Shown in pieces: positions 1,526-17,153 of a stretch of 25,151 nt of DNA. The stretch comes from a virus, in IMG/VR virus record IMGVR_UViG_3300042473_000273, positions 1-25,151 of that record. One strand, given 5' to 3'. A program made the position numbers and the translations under genes. The notes under the pieces were generated by a model that searched no databases, had not been told where the DNA came from, and saw only the letters and a program-made list of their open reading frames with translations. Position 1 is the stretch's first letter. Each line of letters opens with the position of its first letter.

Positions 1526-1550
1526 TGTCAGCCGGAAATGACATATGGAG
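1526..1550 (+). promoter_or_regulatory. Candidate gp43 translational operator (hairpin plus Shine-Dalgarno)
   Basis: TGTCA (1526-1530) and TGACA (1539-1543) form a 5-bp stem around an 8-base loop GCCGGAAA, followed three bases later by the GGAG (1547-1550) that serves the polymerase ATG at 1556. In T4 the polymerase represses its own translation by binding a hairpin of the same shape, 5-bp stem and 8-base loop, next to the gene 43 ribosome site. The loop sequence here differs from T4 as I recall it, so the role is inferred from shape and position. Confidence 0.5.
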
Positions 1551-1555
1551 AACTA

Positions 1556-4222
1556 ATGAGCTATGTAGACGCATGGTTTGACCGCGATAACGATGTTATC
1601 AAAGTGGTTGAACGAAATAAGAAAAATGAGCGTGAGTATCGTGACATTCCTGTCAAGCACACGCTGTATTACAAAGACCCTCGTGGCAAATTTCAAAGTA
1701 TTTACGGAGATGCACTTAGTCGCATTGTTTGTAAAAATACAAAAGACTTTCGCAAAGAACAAGCAATTAATTCAGGTAAGCAATTATTTGAAGCTGACAT
1801 CAATCCAGTATTCGTTTGTCTAAGCGAAAACTATCTAAACGCAGAACCTCCAAAGCTCAATGTGGCATTTTTCGACATTGAGGTGGACTTTGATCCAGAA
1901 CGTGGCTATAGCACTCCTGAAGATGCTTTTATGCCAATTACTAGTATTGCAGTTCACCTACAATGGTTGGAAACACTTGTTTGTTTTGCAGTACCTCCAA
2001 AGACACTAACCTGGGAAGAAGCACAAGAAGCTGTTAAAGACTTTCCTAACACCATGCTGTTTAAAACAGAAGCGGAAATGCTGGATGCTTTTCTTGATAT
2101 TATCCAAGATGCTGATATGCTTAGTGGATGGAATAGTGAAGGTTATGATATTCCGTATACAGTAAATCGTGTGACTAAAGTGCTGAGTAAAGACGACACA
2201 CGCAGATTCTGTTTGTTTGGTCAATATCCCAAGCGCCGTGAATATGAAAAGTTTGGCAAGAAAGCCATTACATACGACTTTATCGGTCGTGTACATTTGG
2301 ATAGTCTTGAACTGTATCGCAAGTACACATATGAAGAACGTCACAGCTACAGACTGGATGCTATTGCAGAATACGAACTAGGCGAACGTAAAACACAATA
2401 CGAAGGCACACTTGATCAATTGTATAACAATGATTTTAAAACATTTATTGAATACAACAGGCAAGATACAATGCTGTTGGATCGTCTGGACAAGAAACTA
2501 AAGTTCATGGATCTTGCCAACACACTGGCACACGAATGTACTGTATTGCTACAGACCACAATGGGTGCAGTTGCTGTTACAGAACAGGCTATTATCAACG
2601 AATGTCACAGACGTGGATTCCAAGTACCTAATCGCATCAAGATGGATGAGCGCGAAGATAGCCAAGCGGCAGGTGCGTATGTTGCCTATCCCAAAGAAGG
2701 TATTCATGACTGGATCGGTTCATTGGATATTAACAGTCTGTATCCCAGTGCAATTAGAGCACTTAACATGGGTCCGGAAACTATTGTTGGACAGTTGCGT
2801 CAAACTAAAACAGAAGAATTTATTGAACTACAAATGGCCAAGGGTAAGTCTTTTGCAGCCAGTTGGGAAGGAGTATTCAGTAGTTTGGAATATGAATGTG
2901 TTATGAATCAAGAGATTGGTACAGACATTACTATCGACTGGGAAAACGGAGACACTGATGTTGTCAGTGCTGCCGAGGTATATAGACTTATATTTGAAAG
3001 TAATCAGCCGTGGATTCTCAGTGCTAATGGTACAATCTTCACTTACGAGAAGGAAGGCATTATTCCCGGACTGCTCAAGCGTTGGTATGCGGAACGTAAA
3101 GAGATGCAGGCCAAGTTAAAGGAATGTATTAAAAGTGGTAATAAAGTCGAAGAAGAATACTGGGACAAACGACAACTTGTCAAAAAGATTAACCTCAATA
3201 GTTTATATGGTGCCATTCTTAACAGCGGTTGTAGGTTTTTTGATAAGCGTATTGGTCAGAGTACCACACTAAGTGGTCGACAGATTGTTAAGCATATGGC
3301 TGGAAAGGTCAATGAAATTGTCACTGGCGATTATGACTATCGTGGTAAAGCAATTATCTACGGTGATACCGACTCGTGTTATTTTAGTGCTTACAAGACT
3401 CTTGAGAAAGAAATCATAGCAGGTAAAATTCCTTGGACAAAGGAAAGTGTAGTACAGTTGTATGATCAAATTGCTGACGAAGTAAACAATACATTCCCGC
3501 AGTTTATGTTGGACACGTTCCACGTACCAAAGACTCGTGGCGAAGTTATCAAAGCAGGTCGTGAGATTGTTGGCAGTAAGAGTTTGTTTATTACTAAAAA
3601 GAGGTATGCTGTATTGTATTACGACAAAGAAGGCAAGCGCACTGATATAGAAGGTAAACCTGGTAAGATCAAGGCCATGGGCTTGGATCTCAAGCGTAGT
3701 GATACTCCAGAGTTTATCCAGAACTTTCTTAGTGATGTTCTTGAAATGGTATTGATGGGTAAACCTGAACAAGAAGTGCTGGATCATATTAGTGAATTTA
3801 GATTACGATTTAAAAGCAGACCCGGTTGGGAGAAAGGTAGTCCTAAACGTGCCAATAACATTACTGAATACGAAGCCAAGGAAAAGAAAGACGGCAAAAC
3901 TAATATGCCAGGACATGTACGTGCTAGTATCAATTGGAACACACTGAAACGTATGTACCAAGACAAATACAGCATGGGTATTACTGACGGTGCAAAGGTT
4001 ATTGTTTGTAAGTTAAAACAAAATCCTATGGGCTTTACCAGTGTGGCATATCCAGTCGATGAACTACGACTTCCGCAATGGTTCAAAGACTTGGCTTTTG
4101 ACCATGCTGAGATGGAACAGACTATTATTGACAATAAGTTAGATAATTTAATTGGTGTGTTGAAATGGGATGTACGTAGCACAGAAGAAAAGAATACATT
4201 TAACAGTTTATTTGAGTTTTAA
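1556..4222 (+). CDS. 43: Family B replicative DNA polymerase (T4 gp43-like)
   Basis: The product has 888 residues (T4 gp43: 898) and combines 3'-5' exonuclease and polymerase. Exonuclease motifs: DIEVD at 107-111, NSEGYD at 193-198, YNRQD at 300-304. Polymerase motifs: A, DINSLYPS at 391-398; B, KKINLNSLYG at 543-552; C, YGDTDS at 602-607. All catalytic carboxylates are present, and the gene is not split and contains no intein. The C-terminus, NTFNSLFEF, looks like the peptide by which gp43 binds the sliding clamp. I chose ATG 1556 because GGAG lies five bases before it; the in-frame ATG at 1538 falls inside a hairpin and has no ribosome site. The clamp gene follows two genes later. Confidence 0.97.
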   Translation: MSYVDAWFDRDNDVIKVVERNKKNEREYRDIPVKHTLYYKDPRGKFQSIYGDALSRIVCKNTKDFRKEQAINSGKQLFEADINPVFVCLSENYLNAEPPKLNVAFFDIEVDFDPERGYSTPEDAFMPITSIAVHLQWLETLVCFAVPPKTLTWEEAQEAVKDFPNTMLFKTEAEMLDAFLDIIQDADMLSGWNSEGYDIPYTVNRVTKVLSKDDTRRFCLFGQYPKRREYEKFGKKAITYDFIGRVHLDSLELYRKYTYEERHSYRLDAIAEYELGERKTQYEGTLDQLYNNDFKTFIEYNRQDTMLLDRLDKKLKFMDLANTLAHECTVLLQTTMGAVAVTEQAIINECHRRGFQVPNRIKMDEREDSQAAGAYVAYPKEGIHDWIGSLDINSLYPSAIRALNMGPETIVGQLRQTKTEEFIELQMAKGKSFAASWEGVFSSLEYECVMNQEIGTDITIDWENGDTDVVSAAEVYRLIFESNQPWILSANGTIFTYEKEGIIPGLLKRWYAERKEMQAKLKECIKSGNKVEEEYWDKRQLVKKINLNSLYGAILNSGCRFFDKRIGQSTTLSGRQIVKHMAGKVNEIVTGDYDYRGKAIIYGDTDSCYFSAYKTLEKEIIAGKIPWTKESVVQLYDQIADEVNNTFPQFMLDTFHVPKTRGEVIKAGREIVGSKSLFITKKRYAVLYYDKEGKRTDIEGKPGKIKAMGLDLKRSDTPEFIQNFLSDVLEMVLMGKPEQEVLDHISEFRLRFKSRPGWEKGSPKRANNITEYEAKEKKDGKTNMPGHVRASINWNTLKRMYQDKYSMGITDGAKVIVCKLKQNPMGFTSVAYPVDELRLPQWFKDLAFDHAEMEQTIIDNKLDNLIGVLKWDVRSTEEKNTFNSLFEF

Positions 4223-5039: not shown

Positions 5040-5771
5040 ATGAAACACTTTTTACAAGATCTAGTAGCGCATACACACAGCTTGGGCTTTTTGCCTTTGG
5101 TCAAAGTATCATCAACTACTAAAGAAACAAGCATTGAATCGATGGCTGAAGATCGGTCAGTTATTGTTAATGCAAAAACACATAGTCCAGTCGACGACTT
5201 TGAAGGCACATTTGGTATGCCTAACTTAAACAAATTGGACATTCACCTAAAGTGTCCAGAGTATAAGGAAAATGCAACTATTTCGGTTGTTAAACAAGAA
5301 CGCAATGGAGAAACAATTCCTACAGGACTGCACTTTCAGAACGGACTTGGCGATTTCCAAAACGATTATCGTTTTATGAATCAAGACATTATCAATGAAA
5401 AATTGAAGAGTGTTAAATTCAAAGGTGCTAAATGGGACATTGAGTTTCAACCAAGCATGGCTAGTATTCAACGTCTTAAGTTTCAAGCAAATGCACACTC
5501 AGAAGAACAAACCTTCCAAGTTAAAACAGAAGGCAACGATCTAGTGTTTAGTTTCGGTGATGCAAGCACACACGCTGGTTCGTTTGTGTTCCAAGCAGGT
5601 ATAGATGGTAAGTTGCGCCAAACATGGTCGTGGCCTGTTAATCAGGTTCAAAGCATTTTGAATCTAACCGGAGATATCACAATGCGTATTGCAGATGCAG
5701 GTGCATTGAACATTACAGTTGATAGTGGTATTGCTACATACGAGTATATTCTTCCAGCACAGTCTAAATAA
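5040..5771 (+). CDS. 45: Sliding clamp, DNA polymerase processivity factor (gp45-like)
   Basis: The 243-residue product matches the size of T4 gp45 (228 aa), the trimeric ring that tethers polymerase to DNA and activates late transcription. The sequence has the clamp look: alternating beta strands, a first domain ending near NLNKLDIHLKC, and a second domain ending in ADAGALNITVDSGIATYEYILPAQ. The ending resembles clamps of marine T4-like phages as I remember them; similarity to T4 itself is weak. ATG 5040 has GGAG six bases upstream; the earlier in-frame ATG at 5028 overlaps that ribosome site. It is the first gene after a consensus promoter, and its stop overlaps the dpdA start, so the two are probably co-translated. 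Confidence 0.75.
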   Translation: MKHFLQDLVAHTHSLGFLPLVKVSSTTKETSIESMAEDRSVIVNAKTHSPVDDFEGTFGMPNLNKLDIHLKCPEYKENATISVVKQERNGETIPTGLHFQNGLGDFQNDYRFMNQDIINEKLKSVKFKGAKWDIEFQPSMASIQRLKFQANAHSEEQTFQVKTEGNDLVFSFGDASTHAGSFVFQAGIDGKLRQTWSWPVNQVQSILNLTGDITMRIADAGALNITVDSGIATYEYILPAQSK

Positions 5772-7453
5772 TGAATAAAAACCTGACAGCCGCACAAAGC
5801 GATTATGCGTATTTCCTGCCAGCAACGTCAGGATTTTATAGCACATACATAGGCAAACAACGCTATAGTAACTATGTGGATCCTGCTCGTATTCCAGCGA
5901 GCTTTGGACCTATGGGTATTGAAGCGATGAACTACTTGAATCCAAATGCGGCATTTTACTTTGACCATTGTTTGTACTCGGCTGGTCATGCTAACTTAGA
6001 TTTGTCTAAACCTGATCCTAGTGAAGACATGTTCCGCAATAGAGATCGTACAACAAGTTGGGTATTAGGCGACTCAGGCGGATTCCAGATTGGTAAAGGT
6101 GTATGGGAAGGCGAGTGGAATGATCCAAGCGGCCCAGTAGTTGCACAACGAATGGCTGAAGCAGTTGCAAAAGGTGTTGAACTTGTACCGCAAGTACATC
6201 CAACTGGTGATCCAAAGACAGATAAAAATGGTAATCCCAAATATACTAAAATTGATCACGTTAAACTGTATCAGGCAAAACTAGATGCGGCACAAAAAAA
6301 ACGTGAACAGGTATTAGCATGGATGGATGCATTAATGGATTATGGTATGGTGCTTGATATTCCGGCATGGGTTGGTCGTAGTCCAGTTGGCGCTAAGAAT
6401 AGTGGTATTGCCAGTTACGATCAATCAGTTAGTGCTACCAAGTATAATAACGAATACTTTATTAAACATCGTACAGGTGCTTGTAAATTCTTAAATGTTT
6501 TACAGGGAGAAAATCACGATCAAGCAGAAGATTGGTATCAGCAAATGAAAGATTTCTGCGACCCAACAAAATATGAACGACCATTTAATGGTTGGGCCAT
6601 GGGCGGACAAAACATGTGCGATGTAGATCTAGTACTACGCAGAGTAGTAGCATTGAAGTTCGACGGATTACTAGAAGAAGGTCATCAAGACTGGATGCAC
6701 TTTCTTGGCACAAGTAAACTTGAGTGGGCATTGTTATTAACAGATATCCAACGTGCTGTTCGCAAGTATCACAATTCTAAATTTACAATTAGTTTTGACT
6801 GTGCTAGTCCGTTTCTTGCCACTGCAAATGGACAGATTTATGTGCAAACAGAAATTACAGATAGACAAAAGTGGTTGTATAGAATGTTGCCAAGTTTGGA
6901 CAATAAAAAGTACAGCAAAGACACACGACTCTTTCAAGATGTCGTTGTACAAGACAAGCACTTTAAATCATTTACAACTAGTCCTTTAATGGACGGAGTA
7001 GAAGTTAAAGATATATGTATATACGGACCCGGTGACCTAAATAAGATAGGTAAAGAAGGTAAAACTAGCTGGGATAGTTTTACTTACGCAATTATGATGG
7101 GGCATAATGTTTGGTTGCATTTGAATAGTGTACAAGAAGCTAATCGCCAATATGACGCTGGATTATGTCCTGCCATGTTAGTGGATGAAAAGTTTGAACG
7201 CATCTACTTTAAAGATGTAGTGGATGCTATTTTTAGTGCTCCGGATAGAGAAACTGCTGTTGCTATTATTGACGGATTTGATAAATTTTGGCAGGCTATT
7301 CCCGGTACTCGTGGTGCAACTGGAAAGAAAACAGTCAATGCAAGTGGAATGTTCTCCGCTTTGTTTGACGAAGTGGACGAAGATAGTGTACAATTAGAAG
7401 ACGAAGAAGAATTTGATACTCAAAAATTAGATGATTTAGAATCCGGTGTATAA
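5771..7453 (+). CDS. dpdA: DpdA-like 7-deazaguanine DNA transglycosylase
   Basis: The 560-residue protein carries the signature of the tRNA-guanine transglycosylase superfamily: DSGGFQ (101-106, substrate-binding Asp), LQGE (244-247, in place of VQGG), GWAMGG (274-279), FLGTSKLEWALLL (311-323) and FDCASP (342-347, with the predicted nucleophile Asp343). The CxCxxC zinc site of tRNA enzymes is not seen, and long insertions and an acidic C-terminal tail (from about 525) are present. In phages with folE/queE genes such homologues are DpdA, which swap guanine in DNA for a 7-deazaguanine base. folE and queE do lie in this window. The start overlaps the clamp stop (TAATG) without a clear ribosome site. 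Substrate base and recognised DNA sequence cannot be read from sequence. Confidence 0.85.
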   Translation: MNKNLTAAQSDYAYFLPATSGFYSTYIGKQRYSNYVDPARIPASFGPMGIEAMNYLNPNAAFYFDHCLYSAGHANLDLSKPDPSEDMFRNRDRTTSWVLGDSGGFQIGKGVWEGEWNDPSGPVVAQRMAEAVAKGVELVPQVHPTGDPKTDKNGNPKYTKIDHVKLYQAKLDAAQKKREQVLAWMDALMDYGMVLDIPAWVGRSPVGAKNSGIASYDQSVSATKYNNEYFIKHRTGACKFLNVLQGENHDQAEDWYQQMKDFCDPTKYERPFNGWAMGGQNMCDVDLVLRRVVALKFDGLLEEGHQDWMHFLGTSKLEWALLLTDIQRAVRKYHNSKFTISFDCASPFLATANGQIYVQTEITDRQKWLYRMLPSLDNKKYSKDTRLFQDVVVQDKHFKSFTTSPLMDGVEVKDICIYGPGDLNKIGKEGKTSWDSFTYAIMMGHNVWLHLNSVQEANRQYDAGLCPAMLVDEKFERIYFKDVVDAIFSAPDRETAVAIIDGFDKFWQAIPGTRGATGKKTVNASGMFSALFDEVDEDSVQLEDEEEFDTQKLDDLESGV

Positions 7454-14686: not shown

Positions 14687-15514
14687 ATGACTAATAAAGA
14701 ATTCTCACCAGATCCAGTATTTCACTCAGACGCCGGCAATACGTTTGTTCCGGACAACTACACACCTTTAGGCAAAGAAGTCTACATCAAGGCGGGCGAA
14801 GATATGTCTGACAAAGGTTATCAAGAAGCCTACTTTGCAGATGTAATCCGTACTAAGATGAAACGTGATAACAAACGTTTTTGGGCTGGCGACAATATAA
14901 GTGATTACCTACATGAAGGTGATAAAGATAAACTAATCGATGAAGCTACAGCAGCATTTGAACTAGTGCTTGATCGTTTGCTAATTGATCGAGAAAACGA
15001 TCCTAACTCAAAAGGTACTGCAAGACGACTTGCCAAGATGTACTTCAATGAAATCATGGAAGGTAGATATGAACCAGCACCAGATGCAACAGCTTTTCCA
15101 AATGACAGCGCCGATCGTTACGAAGGTATGCTTGTGGTACGTAGTGAGCTACGAAGTATGTGTTCTCATCACCACCAGCCTGTCTCTGGGGTTGCCTACA
15201 TCGGTATCATTGCCGCTAATAAACTTATTGGTCTCAGCAAGTATACCAGAATAGCACAGTGGTGTGCTCGCCGAGGAACACTGCAAGAAGAACTCTGTAA
15301 CGACATTGCCCGCGAAATAATGAAAGCAACTGAGTCGGAAAATGTAGCAGTGTACATACAAGCGATTCATGGATGTTGCGAGAATCGCGGCATTATGGCA
15401 CACTCTAGTCTAACACAGACTACAGTACTCAAAGGTGCATTTAATAGCGACATGGGTACAAAGAAAGAATTCTTTGATAACATTAAAATGCAACAAGAGT
15501 TTGCTCCACGATGA
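14687..15514 (+). CDS. folE: GTP cyclohydrolase I
   Basis: This enzyme opens GTP to dihydroneopterin triphosphate, the first step to 7-deazaguanines and to folate. The 275-residue protein has the zinc site CSHHH (Cys159, His162) and the partner Cys230 in HGCCENRG, plus the conserved IGLSKYTRIAQ (181-191), ARR-LQEEL and AVYIQAIHGC segments. About 95 N-terminal residues precede the core, longer than usual. AGGAG lies seven bases upstream of the ATG and a clear promoter precedes it. With queE and dpdA in the window, the 7-deazaguanine route is the likeliest role; feeding folate for thyX is an alternative. Confidence 0.95.
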   Translation: MTNKEFSPDPVFHSDAGNTFVPDNYTPLGKEVYIKAGEDMSDKGYQEAYFADVIRTKMKRDNKRFWAGDNISDYLHEGDKDKLIDEATAAFELVLDRLLIDRENDPNSKGTARRLAKMYFNEIMEGRYEPAPDATAFPNDSADRYEGMLVVRSELRSMCSHHHQPVSGVAYIGIIAANKLIGLSKYTRIAQWCARRGTLQEELCNDIAREIMKATESENVAVYIQAIHGCCENRGIMAHSSLTQTTVLKGAFNSDMGTKKEFFDNIKMQQEFAPR

Positions 15515-15977: not shown

Positions 15978-16315
15978 CTCCGCAGATTCCAGCCGAGGGT
16001 ATACTAAAAACGAACGACTGGGGCAATTCAAAAGTCTACCGGATTGCTTGTAATTGCGGTGACGAAAATCACAATCACAACATGTGGGTGGAAGCAGATG
16101 ATTGCGACATTGTTGTGACCATTTATACCACAGGCAAAACAAACTGGTGGAGCAAAGCACGATGGTATCATATTTGGACATTGCTAACTAAAGGCTATAT
16201 AGATACTGAATCAGCAGTACACTTAACCAAACAACAAGCTCTTAACTATGCAAGTGTGTTACAATTAGCAATTAGCGATGTAGAAGATTTTAGGAAACAA
16301 AATGTCAAAAATTAA
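15974..16315 (+). CDS. Conserved protein with Cys/His cluster, unknown
   Basis: The 113-residue product has CNCGDENHNHNMWVE near residues 26-40, a possible zinc-binding cluster, followed by strands (DIVVTIYTTG) and a Trp-rich stretch (NWWSKARWYHIWTLL). The C-terminal half is helical. No family is recognised. It overlaps queE by 14 bases and may be co-translated, but nothing ties it to the QueE reaction. Confidence 0.7.
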   Translation: MTPQIPAEGILKTNDWGNSKVYRIACNCGDENHNHNMWVEADDCDIVVTIYTTGKTNWWSKARWYHIWTLLTKGYIDTESAVHLTKQQALNYASVLQLAISDVEDFRKQNVKN

Positions 16316-17153
16316 AATAGCAGAATTATTTTATAGTATTCAAGGAGAAGGACGCTACATGGGTGTTCCGTCTGTGTTTTTACGCACATTTGGTTGCAAC
16401 TTTACCTGTGACGGATTTGGCATGCCACGTGGCGAGCAAAGCAAAGAACGTGATTTCATTGCGGCCGATATTAAAAAGTTTTTCAAATACGAAGACTTGC
16501 CACTAGTGAGTTCAGGATGTGATAGTTACGCCAGTTGGGATCCACGTTTTAAAGATCTAAGTCCAATGCTCACAAGCGATGCTATTGCAGAACGCATTAT
16601 GGAAATTCTTCCATACAAGACATGGGTAGACGAGCACTTGGTTATCACAGGTGGCGAACCACTACTAGGTTGGCAACGTGCTTATCCTGAATTGTTGGAT
16701 CATGTTTATATGAAACAATTGAAGGAAATTACTTTTGAAACAAACGGTACTCAACCGCTTACACCAGAATTTAAAGAATACTTGCAAGATTGGTCTATGC
16801 AGATTCCAGGCGAACGTTGTGTAACATTTAGCGTGAGTGCTAAACTTCCAGCAAGTGGCGAGAATTGGTTTGACGCTATTCGCCCGGAAGTTGTGTGTGA
16901 GTACGAAGAAGTAGGTGTAGTGTATCTTAAATTTGTAGTAGCAACAGCGGAAGATATCATTGATGCAGAACACGCTGTTGACGAATTTAGAGAAGCAGGA
17001 TTTAACGGACACGTTTATCTAATGCCGGTAGGTGGTGTAGAAAGTGTTTATACACTTAACGCAAAGAATGTAGCACTGGCAGCTATGAAGCGTGGATGGC
17101 GATACAGCGATAGATTACAAGTGCCATTGTTTAAAAACGAGTGGGGTACTTGA
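16302..17153 (+). CDS. queE: 7-carboxy-7-deazaguanine synthase (radical SAM)
   Basis: QueE rearranges 6-carboxytetrahydropterin to 7-carboxy-7-deazaguanine using S-adenosylmethionine and a 4Fe-4S cluster. The 283-residue product has the QueE opening SIQGEGRYMGVPSVFLRTFGCNF and the SAM-binding GGEP (117-120) followed by FETNGT. The cluster cysteines are unusual: Cys32 and Cys36 keep CX3C, but the position three residues later is Phe, and the next Cys is Cys73 in SGCDSYASW. The motif would be CX3CX36C with an insertion. AGGA stands upstream of the ATG and the start overlaps the preceding gene by 14 bases. Confidence 0.92.
   Translation: MSKIKIAELFYSIQGEGRYMGVPSVFLRTFGCNFTCDGFGMPRGEQSKERDFIAADIKKFFKYEDLPLVSSGCDSYASWDPRFKDLSPMLTSDAIAERIMEILPYKTWVDEHLVITGGEPLLGWQRAYPELLDHVYMKQLKEITFETNGTQPLTPEFKEYLQDWSMQIPGERCVTFSVSAKLPASGENWFDAIRPEVVCEYEEVGVVYLKFVVATAEDIIDAEHAVDEFREAGFNGHVYLMPVGGVESVYTLNAKNVALAAMKRGWRYSDRLQVPLFKNEWGT

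Follow-up and report, generated by a model that had tools for sequence, protein, structure and literature searches.

The closest described systems are the DNA transglycosylases of phages. DpdA1 of Enterobacteria phage 9g and the Queuovirinae is a DNA transglycosylase of about 310 aa that belongs to the TGT fold family, and DpdA3 and DpdA4 were reportedly described in a 2023 paper as phage or viral DNA transglycosylases. DpdA2 is known from Vibrio phage nt-1 (YP_008125322) and its relatives, and the DNA of nt-1 contains dPreQ0 (Hutinet 2019, PMC6884629). A different kind of precedent comes from phage T4, in which the clamp-interacting peptide (CIP) of gp43, SLDFLF, occupies the pocket of gp45 and binding is lost without the last six residues (PMC12746103). 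Moreover, gp43, gp55 and gp33 have C-termini that can replace one another in binding the clamp, and that of gp55 sits on a variable linker (PMC2988020). Here, we compared with these systems a protein, P0001, that is encoded by a fragment of 25,151 bases from a giant freshwater phage (the whole stretch that was analysed, hereafter the window), and we consider it quite likely that P0001 is a DpdA that is held at the phage clamp by a peptide in its tail and exchanges guanine on new phage DNA. The tail peptide is the new result; a literature search that covered few subscription papers found only coincidental co-mentions and no link between a DpdA and a clamp, and the priority of the result is not proven.

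Fold, motifs and relatives of P0001

The gene of the DpdA-like DNA guanine transglycosylase P0001 lies exactly where an earlier note on this DNA had placed it, at 5771-7453 on the plus strand (as do all of the window's features given below), starts with ATG and encodes 560 aa. Searches of Pfam, PHROGs and NCBIfam with P0001 gave no usable match (TIGR00449, tgt_general, at E 0.21 was below the cut-off), and because phmmer and hmmsearch against the PDB sequences found no TGT, only one chance match, a search by fold was needed. The AlphaFold2 model, which was based on an alignment of 37 native relatives, had a mean pLDDT of 86.3 and a pTM of 0.84. Its best match in VIA-align was the TGT of Thermotoga maritima, 2ash (Z 20.2, 299 residues, 4.3 A), followed by the archaeosine TGT 1iq8 (Z 19.5) and then by other bacterial and eukaryotic TGTs, and Foldseek (5lpq, E 5e-7) agreed with the TGT fold. 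The predicted fold of P0001 is the TGT (beta/alpha)8 barrel.

The two TGT motifs that the earlier note had read as intact are so. DSGGFQ occupies residues 101-106 (6071-6088), with Asp101 at the position of the TGT substrate Asp, and D101, S102, G104 and Q106 are invariant in the 37 sequences. FDC..P reads FDCASP (residues 342-347); the nucleophile motif DCASPF (6797-6814) begins with Asp343 (6797-6799), its D343, S346, P347 and F348 are invariant, and it aligns with D266 of DpdA2 and with FDCVMP of E. coli Tgt. A further motif, LDIP (6356-6364), carries Asp196 at the position of the second TGT pocket Asp; L195, D196 and P198 are invariant and align to FDEIP of DpdA2. In a low-identity alignment, DSGGFQ, FDECTP and FDCVMP of E. 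coli Tgt match the motifs of Asp101, Asp196 and Asp343, with the placement of Asp196 leaning mainly on the comparison with DpdA2. The earlier note had proposed structure prediction and alignment of the nucleophile as checks; neither a fold without the barrel nor the loss of the catalytic Asp, which it had named as evidence against its reading, was found, because a TGT barrel was predicted and the invariant Asp343 lines up with the nucleophile Asp of the TGTs and DpdA2.

It has also to be considered that P0001 might be a catalytically altered accessory subunit with a TGT fold, like the eukaryotic QTRT2, which places another enzyme at the clamp. The variable pocket position, LQG or LSG, would suit such a role, but none of the catalytic positions, Asp101, Asp196 and Asp343 among them, varies in the 37 divergent sequences of the alignment of P0001 relatives, which makes a subunit of this kind most improbable. 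As for the pocket position itself, the LQGE that the note had singled out as a replacement of VQGG is present at residues 244-247 but is not distinctive, as LQGS, LQGG, LQGW and LSGS occur in the relatives. The note was also right that P0001 has no CxCxxC; the CxCxxC...H zinc site is absent from P0001 and from all 159 relatives (0/159). However, its emphasis on this was misplaced: because the DpdA1 of 9g and the DpdA2 of nt-1 are without the site too, its loss is ordinary among phage DpdA, and the view of a zinc-less P0001 as unusual was rejected. The approximately 180 residues beyond a typical barrel are accounted for in part by an insertion of about 45 residues near 119-164, which is found in close relatives only, a small helical C-terminal part and a disordered tail of about 45 residues. 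The Asp/Glu-rich C-terminal end is real.

Comparison with the phage DpdA subfamilies, which had also been proposed, revealed a kinship with DpdA2 at the profile level (hhalign probability 85.5, E 5.7e-6). The alignment spans 181 columns, and DSGG, QG and HxLG line up in it, as do the second Asp and the nucleophile Asp. There was no detectable profile similarity to DpdA1 (0.4%). Direct similarity to DpdA2 was not found, i.e., P0001 had no tblastn match with nt-1 and no phrog_10773 match, and the member from Vibrio phage 2.275.O reached only E 0.13. Judged against the DpdA1 and DpdA2 sequences, P0001 is probably a DpdA of an unnamed subfamily that is a distant sister of DpdA2. It shares with DpdA2 (Hutinet 2019, PMC6884629) the order of the TGT motifs and the missing zinc site, and a clamp-like C-terminal peptide is present in most DpdA2. 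However, P0001 is longer by 100-150 residues, its putative peptide is embedded in a long acidic tail instead of forming the very end of the protein, and its gene has a clamp gene as the neighbour, whereas that of DpdA2 is beside queuosine genes. DpdA1 resembles P0001 in that its gene adjoins the clamp gene, frequently with a 1-base overlap; it has a clamp-type C-terminal peptide, and it differs in its length and in that this peptide is of the beta-clamp QxxLF type. In Campylobacter phage CP220, searches by profile and by motif detected no transglycosylase; a match to the A2 profile (E 0.032) was a prohead scaffold protein and was rejected as chance.

The nearest solved folds are tRNA TGTs, and QueE, FolE and QueD serve queuosine synthesis too, as would be expected if P0001 acted on RNA and exchanged guanine in the tRNA of the host or the phage. 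We regard this as very unlikely, because P0001 has no zinc site, as in 9g DpdA1 and nt-1 DpdA2, it is akin at the profile level to DpdA2, whose phage nt-1 has dPreQ0 in its DNA (PMC6884629), and its gene is linked to those of a polymerase and a clamp. Moreover, a clamp peptide would be senseless in a tRNA enzyme, and a clamp-type end was found in 0/11 bacterial TGTs.

A tblastn search of the GenBank phages returned 13 records, in all of which the product is annotated as "hypothetical protein". Eleven belong to Pseudomonas jumbo phages of the PA5oct/Paride type, at 30% identity, and the other two to Vibrio phage 2.275.O and to Sinorhizobium phage Phosso. The P0001 family is abundant in IMG/VR, where each of two scans confirmed close to 600 stretches or more. 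Related loci were recovered with the alignment as the query; the Paride and 2.275.O proteins as queries gave none.

The clamp gene and the peptide in the tail

The gene upstream of P0001 (5028-5771) encodes a protein of 247 aa (phrog_12062), whose AlphaFold2 model (pLDDT 92.4) matched PCNA 8dr4_G with Z 18.2 over 228/247 residues. Because this fold search matched PCNA, the identity of the product is settled as a sliding clamp of the PCNA/gp45 type, with a predicted PCNA fold. Its homologue in Vibrio phage 2.275.O matches the processivity factor phrog_223 (E 6.7e-5). Ribosomal proteins that an hmmsearch with the clamp alignment found in the PDB at E about 0.02 were rejected as chance. The stop-start overlap of the two genes, which the earlier note had pointed out, is TAATG, with base 5771 common to the stop codon and the ATG. 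Elsewhere, 154 loci have the clamp gene upstream of, and no more than 1.6 kb from, that of the DpdA-like protein, and 26 show the same 1-base overlap. The window also encodes a family-B DNA polymerase (1538-4222; phrog_262, E 1e-199, PF00136) with a C-terminal clamp-interacting peptide, NTFNSLFEF (4193-4219), that corresponds to the T4 gp43 CIP SLDFLF (PMC12746103). The order of polymerase, clamp, DpdA-like protein, QueE and exonuclease is present in Paride too. In that phage (L082:3608-8834), a homing endonuclease gene divides that of the family-B polymerase into two parts, of which the C-terminal one retains an HFDSLFGW end. At the window's edge, positions 1-160 hold a perfect 33-bp tandem repeat (4.8 copies) that encodes an 11-residue PTPAEVKPEVK repeat.

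The tail of P0001 contains a putative peptide of the same kind, GMFSALFDE (residues 526-534, 7346-7372), in a region that is predicted to be disordered (residues 516-549, pLDDT <50). Its own copy is weak (score 4.5, shuffle p 0.055; not significant in a scan of the window alone with the matrix described below), so that the claim for P0001 rests on the alignment to its relatives. Even in this disordered stretch, at least 90% of the 37 aligned relatives keep Phe532, and the aligned DpdA-like tails, such as NTFNNLFDL, NTFGGLFEV, NEFNKLFDF and NSFNSLFDV, resemble the C-terminal ends of the polymerases from the same phages, such as NTFNSLFEF, NTFGSLFSF and NTFNKLFDF. A position matrix was made from the polymerase ends only, with no DpdA tails in the fitting. 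Its best match in the whole protein fell within the last 75 residues in 33/41 representative DpdA-like proteins compared to 5.8 expected, and a score of at least 14 was reached by 38/156 DpdA-like proteins and by 3/2476 other predicted proteins of the same loci; the matrix derives from polymerases of the same phages, and shared composition could raise the scores, yet the other proteins of the loci score low. No strong match was found in the relatives of loci L074, L158, L161 and L162. Where the polymerase end has FF, the DpdA-like tail has FF as well (7/7 near and 4/4 distant loci, with 7/67 and none elsewhere), a co-variation of FF and LF that is partly phylogenetic and inflated by related sequences (near-clade p 0.037 for unique motif pairs). 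A second conserved motif of acidic residues and leucine, FDTQKLDDLE (residues 548-557, 7412-7441), falls largely in a predicted short helix (550-559), and a DDxxLRxLE-like end follows the clamp-type peptide in most of the P0001 relatives. Polymerase-like peptides also occur in proteins of 182-195 aa at L034:14218-14805 (STLNSLFIF), L043:11332-11913 (NNFGDLFK) and L145:10260-10808 (NEFNSLFDV), which are candidate clamp clients.

Clamp-type ends were found in DpdA1 and DpdA2 too. T4-like ends (SLDDLFG, SLEDLFE, TLEEFF and others) are present in 17/19 divergent DpdA2 members and in 74/78 DpdA2 compared to 1/390 other genes. In four phages, they closely match the ends of the phages' own polymerases: SLDDLFG and SLEDLFGW in Moby, SLEELFG and SLESLFG in X1, TLDELFE and SLDDLFE in ACP17, and SLDSFFD and TLDDFFS in BUCT-ZZ01 (DpdA2 and polymerase, respectively). 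DpdA1 of the 9g type ends in the beta-clamp type QxxLF (QELF, QMGLF, QIGLF, QMSLF) in 38/47 divergent members and in 67/78 compared to 0/473 other genes, and its gene lies directly or nearly 5' of the beta-clamp gene in the annotated cases. The regular expressions for both classes were written after the first examples had been seen, and therefore these enrichments describe a pattern and are not a test stated in advance. Among other proteins of the DpdA2 loci, an unannotated 447-aa protein beside the DpdA2 of BUCT-ZZ01 (L291:4653-5996) ends in GSLEDFFND and is possibly a second clamp-bound enzyme of the pathway, and a recurrent neighbour gene in L314-L393 ends in GGIVxNDLFN or GGIIENDLFS, another LF-ending tail.

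Taken with the polymerase-like peptides in the tails of most relatives, the clamp-class-matched peptides of DpdA1 and DpdA2 lend support to the guess of the earlier note of a possible tether between base exchange and replication. P0001 might instead act freely on DNA, with an LF peptide that is incidental or helps the protein to dimerise or fold and with a clamp gene that is adjacent because both belong to a shared early operon. Co-expression alone can give the gene order, the motif copy in P0001 is weak, and the DpdA2 of nt-1 and KVP40 work although the peptide is absent from them; the DNA of nt-1 still has dPreQ0 (PMC6884629), which counts against a tether. However, the tail that carries the peptide is disordered, hardly any neighbouring protein has one, and the type of the peptide tracks that of the clamp: in DpdA1, QxxLF goes with beta clamps; in DpdA2, SLxxLF goes with clamps of the gp45 type; and the P0001 family has polymerase-like ends. 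A role in folding or dimerisation is disfavoured because it would not predict such tracking, and we consider a freely acting enzyme unlikely. Like the C-termini of T4 gp43, gp55 and gp33, the putative peptide of the P0001 family is a short hydrophobic-acidic one on a flexible tail that would serve a clamp of the gp45/PCNA type (PMC2988020, PMC12746103); unlike them, it sits on a predicted base-modifying enzyme.

Pathway genes and the probable base

The window encodes FolE, the GTP cyclohydrolase I of the 7-deazaguanine pathway (14687-15514; PF01227, E 2.7e-38), and QueE, the 7-carboxy-7-deazaguanine synthase (16302-17153; phrog_2076, E 2.4e-50), to which the nearest phage QueE is that of Synechococcus phage BUCT-ZZ01 (48.6% identical). 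Among 16 records, which were mostly fragments and included three contigs of 353-383 kb and the Paride and Phosso genomes, QueE was present in 16/16, FolE in 14/16, QueD in 12/16 and QueC in 1/16. The phage-encoded pathway therefore usually ends at 7-carboxy-7-deazaguanine; that QueC is absent is secure only in Paride and Phosso, whose records are complete, because the rest are mostly fragments. By gene content, the inserted base is probably 7-carboxy-7-deazaguanine or a derivative; alternatively, the host QueC may complete the pathway to preQ0. The sole record with QueC, Vibrio phage 2.275.O (L083:12898-16931), also has genes annotated as a 7-cyano-7-deazaguanine reductase (QueF type) and a vitamin/preQ0-type transporter, and therefore it probably inserts a different base. 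In large IMG/VR contigs (G001, G002, G003, G006 and G011), 6-8 QueE-like radical SAM profile matches, mostly weak, were found in each, which indicates several other radical-SAM genes per genome.

Proposed mechanism and its meaning for phages

The mechanism that we propose builds on what was computed, i.e., the fold, the motifs, the gene content, the fold of the clamp, the linkage to its gene and the similarity and specificity of the peptide at the family level. From these, we infer that P0001 has DNA as its substrate and binds the clamp. Asp343 would attack the deoxyribose C1' of a guanosine in the phage DNA, as in the TGT mechanism, guanine would leave and a free 7-deazaguanine would fill its place. 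This base would be supplied by the phage FolE-QueD-QueE, probably as 7-carboxy-7-deazaguanine or a derivative, and the host QueC could extend it to preQ0. The peptide of the disordered C-terminal tail would dock in the pocket of the PCNA-like clamp that is used by the C-terminus of the polymerase and would keep the barrel at the replication fork. A tether to the clamp at the fork would mean that exchange takes place on freshly copied phage DNA and that the host DNA is largely spared, because the tether would recognise the phage clamp.

Such tethering may be general to the DNA transglycosylases of phages. We lean, with less assurance than for P0001 itself, towards the view that at least three DpdA lineages independently gained a peptide for their own clamp, so that the base would be inserted at the fork and self would be told from host by the clamp. 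In eukaryotes, DNA methylation is coupled to replication by clamp-bound enzymes, which is a parallel logic.

The results offer a function for a "hypothetical" protein that is conserved in phages of the Paride/PA5oct type and in many freshwater jumbo phages, and predict a modified base in the DNA of these phages. Cultivable phages that bear such enzymes are 9g, Moby and Paride. If true, a tether to the clamp would answer how a DpdA picks phage over host DNA and when in the infection it does so, and it would make clear why such phages leave their mark on no DNA but their own new copies.
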